A stretch of DNA of 37,180 bases from Bryobacteraceae bacterium. Its GTDB lineage: Bacteria > Acidobacteriota > Terriglobia > Bryobacterales > Bryobacteraceae. How positions within the stretch are numbered: the first letter of the stretch is position 1; the number at the start of each line of letters is the position of its first letter. The stretch covers positions 1-37,180 of the forward strand of contig JASHOO010000315.1 in assembly GCA_030041035.1 (NCBI GenBank), given 5' to 3'. The notes below the pieces were generated by a model, which searched no databases, was not told where the DNA came from, and saw only the letters and a program-made list of their open reading frames with translations. Below are positions 4,832 to 7,229 of this stretch, one piece after another. Made by a program: the position numbers and the translations under genes.

Positions 4832-5332
4832 TTGCGCGCGATGAGCGCCGCAGTGCTGCTGCTGGCGCTGGTTGTGCCGGGTTTGCAGACGCTGACCGAT
4901 GAAGTTTTTCAAATCCCGGCGAAGGAATGGCGTTATGTCGCGCTGACCGTGAAGGAGGTGCCGGCGAGGGTGGACTGCAACTTCCACGTAATGTCCGGCG
5001 CCGGAGCGGTACGGGTGGCGCTGGTGAACGCGGACGGACTGGACGACTGGAAGCACGGGAATCGCAACGCGGCGGGCGCGCCGGCGCCGCAGGGCAGATT
5101 CAGCAGAACGGTGAGCGTGCCGGACGAGTACGCGGTGATTATCGAGAACAGCGGGCGCGGTGATGCGAGCGTGCGGCTGCGGGTCACGCTGGACAGTTCG
5201 GGGCGGGGCCAGCCGCAGGCGAGGTATTTATCACCGGAAAGACGACTGGCGGTGATCGCGATCAGCGCAACGGTATTTTTCGCGATCGTGAGCTACTCGG
5301 CGAAGAAGCTCCTGGGAGCGATGCGGCAGTAG
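4832..5332 (+). CDS. Exported membrane-anchored beta-rich protein, unknown function
   Basis: The 166-residue product has an N-terminal signal sequence (SAAVLLLALVVPGL), a beta-strand-rich domain of about 100 residues and a C-terminal membrane helix (RRLAVIAISATVFFAIVSYSAKKLLG). The middle (WRYVALTVKE, RVDCNFHVMSGAGAVRVALV, YAVIIENSG) resembles a small beta-sandwich such as a GOLD-like fold, but I cannot assign a family. The start is TTG at 4832: GGGGGTGA ends 6 nt upstream, whereas the ATG at 4841 would be 15 nt away. Its start lies 27 bp from the divergent DoxX-thioredoxin gene, so the two may share a control region. It converges with the 5342-5653 gene. Confidence 0.68.
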   Translation: MRAMSAAVLLLALVVPGLQTLTDEVFQIPAKEWRYVALTVKEVPARVDCNFHVMSGAGAVRVALVNADGLDDWKHGNRNAAGAPAPQGRFSRTVSVPDEYAVIIENSGRGDASVRLRVTLDSSGRGQPQARYLSPERRLAVIAISATVFFAIVSYSAKKLLGAMRQ

Positions 5333-5341
5333 GAGCCGCTT

Positions 5342-5653
5342 CTACCGCTTGGGTTCGACCTGCGTGAGGATACGGGCGACGAGGGGTTCGGAGGCGAGGT
5401 GGAAGAAACCTTGGGCATCCTGTTGGAGCGTGCGCGAGATTTCTTCGATGCGGGCGAATACGTGGAGGCGCTCATCGAGCGAAAGATGGGGATGGTGGAG
5501 TTTTTCGACGAGGCCGTCTAACTCATCGACCTTAACCCGCAGGCTGGCGACGATGGTATCGACGTTGTCGCGCAGGAAGCGCCCGGCTACCGATTCCGCG
5601 CGGCGCAACTCAGGCTCGCTCCACTTTGCGTAATCATTGCCCTGAGCACTCAT
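5342..5653 (-). CDS. Small helical cytoplasmic protein, unknown function
   Basis: The 103-residue protein is charged and predicted mostly helical, with heptad-like segments (FLRDNVDTIVASLRVKVDELDGLVEKLHH and DERLHVFARIEEISRTLQQ). No signal peptide, membrane segment or catalytic motif is visible, and I do not recognise the family. The ATG at 5653 has no good Shine-Dalgarno. Just upstream lie a perfect CRP-type palindrome and a TATAAT on the same strand, so this gene appears to have its own regulated promoter. It ends 10 bp from the convergent stop of the neighbouring gene. Confidence 0.6.
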   Translation of the reverse strand: MSAQGNDYAKWSEPELRRAESVAGRFLRDNVDTIVASLRVKVDELDGLVEKLHHPHLSLDERLHVFARIEEISRTLQQDAQGFFHLASEPLVARILTQVEPKR

Positions 5654-5663
5654 CGGCCGGGTT

Positions 5664-5685
5664 GAGTGTGAGCAACATCACACTC
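5664..5685. promoter_or_regulatory. CRP/FNR-type operator palindrome GAGTGTGA-N6-TCACACTC
   Basis: Perfect 8-bp inverted repeat with a 6-nt centre; its core TGTGA-N6-TCACA is exactly the consensus recognised by CRP-family regulators. It lies 10 bp upstream of the ATG at 5653 (minus strand) and directly downstream of a TATAAT at 5693-5698. As transcribed it would cover roughly +1 to +22. Bound protein there would be expected to repress this promoter. It could alternatively be a 5'-UTR hairpin. Confidence 0.6.
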
Positions 5686-5692
5686 TCTTACG

Positions 5693-5698
5693 ATTATA
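5693..5698 (-). promoter_or_regulatory. Candidate -10 box TATAAT for the 5342-5653 gene
   Basis: A perfect TATAAT on the minus strand predicts a transcript start near 5686, at the edge of the palindrome. A perfect TTGACA occurs at 5706-5711 on the same strand but only 7 nt away, too close to act as its -35. No -35 at 16-18 nt is convincing. Confidence 0.4.
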
Positions 5699-5735
5699 GT
5701 CAGCGTGTCAATCTGCCAAAGGATAACGGGAAACC

Positions 5736-6347
5736 TCAGCTGTTCAGAGGCCGGCCGACGAGCGACAGGAACTCGTCACGAGTGGTTTTGCGCGTGCGGA
5801 AGGCGCCCAGCATGGCGCTGGTGACGGCGCCGGAGTGCTGCTTTTCGACGCCGCGCATCATCATGCAGAAGTGGCGGGCTTCGCAGATGACGCCGACGCC
5901 GACGGGATCGATGATGTTCTGAATGCTTTGGGCGATTTCCTGAGTCATGCGCTCCTGAATTTGCAGGCGGCGGGCGAAGACATCGACGATGCGGGGGATC
6001 TTGCTCAGCCCGATGACCTGGCCTTTGGGCAGATAAGCGACGTGGACCTTTCCGAAGAAGGGCAACATATGGTGCTCGCACAGGCTGAAGAATTCGATGT
6101 CCTTGACGATGACCATTTCGTCGTACTGGACCGCAAACCGGGCGCCGTTGACGACCTGGCGCACATCGGTGTGATAGCCGCTGGTGAGGAAGCGCAGGGC
6201 CTTTTCGACGCGCTCCGGGGTATTGGCGAGGCCGTCGCGGTCAGGATCGTCCACCAACTGATCGATCACGCGCTGAATGAGGGGAGCGAAAGAGCTGTCG
6301 GCCGCGCGGAGTGCGGGCATTTTGACTACCTGTTTATGCTTGGCCAT
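5736..6347 (-). CDS. folE: GTP cyclohydrolase I
   Basis: FolE converts GTP to 7,8-dihydroneopterin triphosphate, the first step of folate, biopterin and queuosine-type pterin synthesis. From ATG 6347 the protein has 203 residues, normal for the family. Visible signatures are [20 protein letters not shown] with zinc-binding Cys and catalytic His residues, [25 protein letters not shown], and [11 protein letters not shown] with the second zinc Cys. The longer track start (6449) only extends into the upstream gene. ATG 6347 overlaps the preceding PTPS gene by 14 bp; ATG 6320 is an alternative. It is the last gene of a three-gene minus-strand operon with two PTPS/QueD paralogues, which use its product as substrate. 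Confidence 0.95.
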
Positions 6348-6771
6348 GGATTTGCCACACTTCAAAGATGTTGCGAGGGGTCTCGGCGATGCTGACTTTT
6401 TCGAGGGAGGGGCCATTGCCCGGGAAGGCCGATTTCCAATGCGTCTCAAGGCGGCGGAAGATCTCGGCGGCCAGATTCTCGGTAGTGGGCACGGAATTGC
6501 GGAATTCGGGGATTTCTTCGTTCAGGTTGCGGTGATCAAAGGGGCGCAACACGTGGGCTTCGACCAGGCGATCGAGGAGGGCGGGATCGAGGATGCGGCC
6601 GGAGCGCGGATCGAGAGGGCCGCGGGCGCTCACGGCAATTTCGTAATTGTGGCCGTGGCCGTAGGGGTTGTCACACTTGCCGTAGAGCTCGCGATTTTGC
6701 TCGTCCGCGAGTGCGGCGGCATGGAGACGGTGTGAAGCGGAGAAGCGGTACTTGCGGGTGATGCGGATCAC
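6334..6771 (-). CDS. 6-pyruvoyl-tetrahydropterin synthase / QueD family, catalytically complete
   Basis: The 145-residue protein belongs to COG0720. Zinc ligands are the His of FSASHRL and the two His of GHGHNY. The catalytic Cys33 lies in [12 protein letters not shown], followed by the FDH motif and ENLAAEIF. The spacing is Cys-x5-HGH, which in published motif schemes marks PTPS (tetrahydrobiopterin type). QueD (6-carboxytetrahydropterin) usually has Cys-x3-HGH. It therefore probably acts on the FolE product, but whether the product is 6-pyruvoyl- or 6-carboxy-tetrahydropterin cannot be settled from sequence. The GTG start overlaps the stop of the upstream paralogue (GTGA), implying translational coupling. 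Confidence 0.88.
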
Positions 6772-7184
6772 GCGGCGCCTCCGAAGTAGTCGACGTAGAG
6801 GTCCGGAGTTTCGAAAATGCGGACAGCGTGCAGGCGGCTGCCGTCTTTTGAGAGGTGCAGATCCAGGCGCTGCCAGACGTCGATGGCGATGTTCTCGGCG
6901 GTGGGCACGATGTGATCGAATGGCGGAACTTCGTGATTGAGGAAGCGATGGTCGTACACCTCGACCACTTCGCGATGGATCACGTCCTTGAGTTTTTTGA
7001 GATCCATGACCATGCCGGTGACAGGATCGGGATTGCCTTCGACGGTTACCTCAACCGCGTAGTTGTGCCCGTGGCCATAAGGGTTGGCGGCCGCGCCGAA
7101 CAACTCCTGGTTCTCGCGGTCGCTCAGCAGGGGGCTGCGACAGACGTGGGAGGCGGAAAATTCGACGCGCTTAGTAATCAGCAT
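6768..7184 (-). CDS. PTPS/QueD paralogue lacking the catalytic cysteine
   Basis: From ATG 7184 this is 138 residues, clearly homologous to its neighbour. It keeps the zinc histidines (FSASH, GHGHNY), the YDH pair, TAENIAIDVW and the FETPD glutamate. At the position of the catalytic Cys it has Ala32 ([14 protein letters not shown] instead of [12 protein letters not shown]). Another Cys15 follows FSASHV but is not at the known catalytic position. It may have another activity, as some Cys-less COG0720 subfamilies do, or form a mixed oligomer with the active paralogue. The track start at 7223 (TTG) lies within the divergent promoter region and is less likely. First gene of the operon with the active PTPS and folE. 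Confidence 0.85.
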   Translation of the reverse strand: MLITKRVEFSASHVCRSPLLSDRENQELFGAAANPYGHGHNYAVEVTVEGNPDPVTGMVMDLKKLKDVIHREVVEVYDHRFLNHEVPPFDHIVPTAENIAIDVWQRLDLHLSKDGSRLHAVRIFETPDLYVDYFGGAA

Positions 7185-7229
7185 CCAATAAGCCCGATGC
7201 CTCGGATGGCCGGCGGGATACAATATGAT

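Follow-up and report, generated by a model that had tools for sequence, protein, structure and literature searches.

A perfect palindrome of 22 bases, GAGTGTGA-gcaaca-TCACACTC, is found on the minus strand (5664..5685) of an acidobacterial contig, in front of a gene for a small helical protein. The whole stretch of DNA analysed, which is called the window below, is 37,180 nt long. The palindrome contains TGTGA-N6-TCACA without mismatch, and is probably a regulatory switch of a familiar kind, kept before the same gene in other genera. The reading that we favour, with moderate confidence, is a CRP-type operator that would cover the transcription start and probably repress the gene. The site type is ordinary and the phylum is little studied, and the proposal is better supported now than in the earlier note on this DNA, by other arguments.

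Position and chance expectation of the palindrome

The palindrome is composed of the arm GAGTGTGA (5664-5671), the spacer GCAACA (5672-5677) and the arm TCACACTC (5678-5685), and the 8-bp perfect inverted repeat with CRP half-sites and spacing that had been noticed before is exact at all positions. TTGACA (5711-5706) comes first along the minus strand, followed by TATAAT (5698-5693), the palindrome and the ATG of the gene (5653-5651), with the palindrome beginning 7 bases after TATAAT and stopping 10 bases before the ATG. Its location between a TATAAT and the ATG of a helical gene is as the earlier note had described, and three helices are indeed predicted for the protein. The further statement that it lies inside a promoter holds for TATAAT, a candidate -10 box, but not for a -35 box, since none was found at the usual spacing of 16-18 in the promoter scan upstream of TATAAT. 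The TTGACA (5706..5711, minus strand), located inside TTTGGCAGATTGACA, which is common to the window and genome G002, is only 7 bases before TATAAT and too near for a normal -35. Consequently, it is the -10 box by itself that places the palindrome inside a promoter. A sigma-70 promoter with both hexamers was rejected, as the scan returned none, and so was the palindrome as an intrinsic terminator of the neighbouring gene folE, because there is no T-run and the terminator scan was empty. If TATAAT is the -10 box, the predicted +1 would be near 5686-5687, and the palindrome would span about +1 to +22.

Could such a palindrome occur by chance? A perfect 16-base palindrome had been regarded as unlikely at random, which is not borne out: the 37 kb contain 2 perfect 8-bp inverted repeats whose arms are 6 bases apart, versus about 1.0 in simulated sequence, and 8 versus 8.0 when spacers of 3-10 are allowed. 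Since the counts in the window are close to the simulated ones, the palindrome by itself is unsurprising. However, unlike perfect 8-bp inverted repeats generally, the exact CRP core is rare in the window, where TGTGA-N6-TCACA has this sole exact copy. Based on the squared local frequency of TGTGA, about 0.005 exact cores are expected in the window and 0.9 in its genome, compared with 1 and 5 observed, respectively, so that the genome scan proposed in the earlier note did reveal more sites than expected.

The downstream gene and the recurrence of the site

According to ORF translation, structure prediction and family searches, the gene (5342..5653, minus strand) encodes an uncharacterised three-helix protein of 103 aa. 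The model of its three helices is confident (pLDDT 87), and the fold search with this model returned only generic helical bundles, with no solved structure at an E-value <0.001. The small subunit of exonuclease VII was rejected as its identity, the scores being sub-threshold in both Pfam (16.7 bits versus 24) and NCBIfam (17.3 versus 35). The gene is narrowly distributed, being present in 10/237 Bryobacteraceae genomes with a refined profile, while an earlier profile, run over the same 237 genomes, additionally listed G067, weakly. Orthologues were found neither in other families of the same order nor in 396 genomes of the phylum, save the window's own, and the named records with relatives of the protein are acidobacterial (Terriglobia, gp3).

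The upstream neighbour of the gene is folE (5736..6347, minus strand), which encodes GTP cyclohydrolase I, and this order is conserved in the genus only. Two adjacent ORFs precede folE (window 5736-7223, minus strand), in the same order in the same-genus relatives. The ORF next to folE (6334-6771, minus strand) encodes a 6-pyruvoyl tetrahydropterin synthase/QueD-type protein, and the one beyond it (6768-7223, minus strand) reads like a second protein of this type. On the other side, a convergent ORF on the plus strand (4832-5332), which has a C-terminal hydrophobic stretch and no family above cut-off, is kept beside the 103-aa gene in both same-genus relatives.

Among the ten orthologues, TGTGA-N6-TCACA before the gene is exact in 3/10 (the window's included), near in 2/10 and absent in 5/10. 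The other exact sites are TGTGAaccaaaTCACA in G203 and TGTGAgtcaaaTCACA in G206, both of a second clade. Also in the second clade, G062 has TGTGAgttcgcTTACA, with one mismatch, and G001, which is of the same genus as the window, has CGTGAtgtttcTCACT, with two mismatches, retaining GTGA-N6-TCAC. Each of these four sites is located 10-13 bases past a -10-like box. Across the CRP-like sites the length of the six-base spacer is constant while its sequence drifts, which is what would be expected of a dimer site.

The earlier note had made its proposal depend on the palindrome accompanying the gene and on a CRP-family protein being encoded. The former holds in part: the site recurs exactly in another clade, but G177, G197, G024, G070 and even the same-genus G002 keep the gene without the half-sites, and these five of the ten orthologues argue against the operator. 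The latter holds throughout, as described in the next section.

How independent are these occurrences? G203, G206 and G062 have a recognisable common leader in the alignment and were therefore counted as one lineage, with the window's genus as the other; note that the gapped leader alignments are meaningless end to end for G203/G062 and G206/G177, and that the boxes of G000 and G001 are not lined up. The neighbourhoods of the gene differ between the two clades, which suggests that the site stays with the gene. Moreover, exact sites are scarce (G000, G203 and G206 have 3-5 each), so the chance of a copy within 220 bases of the 103-aa gene is about 1e-4 for a given genome. For a repeat in another clade it is about 1e-3, given that the window site was found first and about six further genera were examined.

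Different palindromes are found at the same place in two of the orthologues. In G177, ACTAGA-N6-TCTAGT (L043, G177:C19:47318-47335) precedes the gene by about 150 bases and has this single occurrence among the ten genomes, which would be strange if they shared one regulator. The palindrome in G002 is GCGCGA-N4-TCGCGC.

Exact sites elsewhere and CRP-family regulators

Exact copies of TGTGA-N6-TCACA number 33 in the ten genomes versus 15 for a reversed-pattern control; the excess is only about twofold, which speaks against the operator, over a control that is not composition-matched. By a home-made codon score, which is not a gene prediction, 24/33 are non-coding-like, or 21/30 when the three at the 103-aa gene are set aside, whereas positions drawn at random from the same loci reach 38%. 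In the window's genome, 3/4 of the other exact sites are non-coding-like. A-T-rich intergenic DNA may be a partial explanation for this preference for non-coding DNA.

Some of these sites are located near the starts of five genes with the CarboxypepD_reg domain (L126, L127, L133, L150 and L153; three genomes), four of which also have an outer-membrane barrel domain in the part that was read, a combination that resembles Oar-like TonB-dependent receptors. Such receptor-like genes are numerous in these bacteria, and the five with nearby exact sites could possibly belong to a CRP regulon. Exact sites are also found next to CRP-family genes. In G002, one exact site (L144, ~1500-1550; G002:C6:78642-78657) lies between divergent genes for a CRP-family protein and an ScdA_N/hemerythrin (iron-sulphur repair-like) protein, an arrangement that suggests autoregulation, and G177 has one exact site upstream of a CRP-family gene.

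A search for regulators of the CRP/FNR family, which the earlier note had called for, was successful. Four proteins in the window's genome have both the cyclic-nucleotide domain (PF00027) and the Crp-type helix-turn-helix (PF13545), and CRP-family proteins, the majority having the R-E pair found in the E. coli recognition helix, are encoded in 10/10 genomes. One of the four, on C411 (G000:C411), has VRELVSR, with the R-E-x-x-x-R residues that give E. coli CRP its specificity. In a near-ubiquitous regulator group, R-E is followed by His, and the most widespread groups carry His or Phe at the third of these residues, E. coli Arg185, which speaks against the operator. No protein of the C411-type group was seen in G203, a genome with an exact site, and this group is consequently not an obvious match for the regulator.

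Operator, hairpin and other readings

If the palindrome is an operator, a dimeric CRP/FNR-family regulator would bind it over about +1 to +22 of the small helical gene's promoter. Since the palindrome covers this region, a dimer on it would prevent initiation or early elongation, and the control would presumably be repression.

The palindrome could also be a 5'-terminal mRNA stem-loop that acts on stability or translation, in which the pairing matters and the CRP match is incidental; we consider this rather unlikely. As RNA, the palindrome folds into an 8-pair hairpin, the pairing reaches beyond the CRP core, and folding z-scores are as low as -5.3. An inverted repeat begins about 6-10 bases past the -10 in 7/10 orthologues, those of G177 and G002 having quite different letters, and both sides have changed in 6/8 pairs across these stems. 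However, the pair counts are biased, as the seven rows were picked for having palindromes, and the dyad symmetry of a DNA operator covaries equally. Three single departures, including those in G206 and G062, would be G-U pairs in the sense-strand RNA, and the stem of G001 pairs with one bulge, both of which lean weakly to RNA. On the other hand, the two clades have in common the inner TGTGA/TCACA letters and a spacer of six bases, neither of which a bare hairpin needs; G197, G024 and G070 have no stable hairpin at that place, and Rfam 15 gave no match. We judge the operator to be likelier than the RNA hairpin, and both can coexist. The particular combination of a protein operator and a 5' mRNA hairpin in one start-site element, dedicated to the small lineage-restricted protein and keeping its symmetry while the letters swap between close relatives, seems improbable to us.

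Little credence is also given to a dyad operator of some other dimeric repressor, possibly dedicated to this gene, with its specificity switched in G177 and G002. The palindromes with changed letters at the same place in these two genomes would fit, as would the uniqueness of the G177 version among the ten genomes, but the core is the exact CRP consensus and no obvious conserved regulator is present in the neighbourhood of the gene. Finally, an accidental palindrome without function, with which the common inverted repeats of this size in the window and the genome's exact sites, only a few above expectation, would agree, is already unlikely and receives hardly any weight from us, in view of the recurrence before the same gene in the second clade (about 1e-4 per genome, or about 1e-3 once the number of genera looked at is taken into account).

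With the CRP-type operator as the preferred reading, the small 103-aa protein gains its first regulatory clue. No CRP regulon is described for Acidobacteriota in the open-access literature searched, and a perfect site that accompanies one gene in two clades, together with further sites close to genes for outer-membrane receptors, provides a starting point for one.

Two known systems can be compared with the palindrome. Stabilising stem-loops occur at the 5' terminus of mRNAs, such as that of ompA, and the palindrome resembles them in its perfect stem, which starts close to the predicted +1; unlike the ompA-type stem-loop, the window palindrome has conserved inner letters and a fixed spacer, and its role as RNA is putative. 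The putative operator in the window is identical to the E. coli CRP operator (consensus TGTGA-N6-TCACA) in half-sites, spacing and symmetry, but it lies over the predicted start, whereas the E. coli operator is located upstream at activated promoters.
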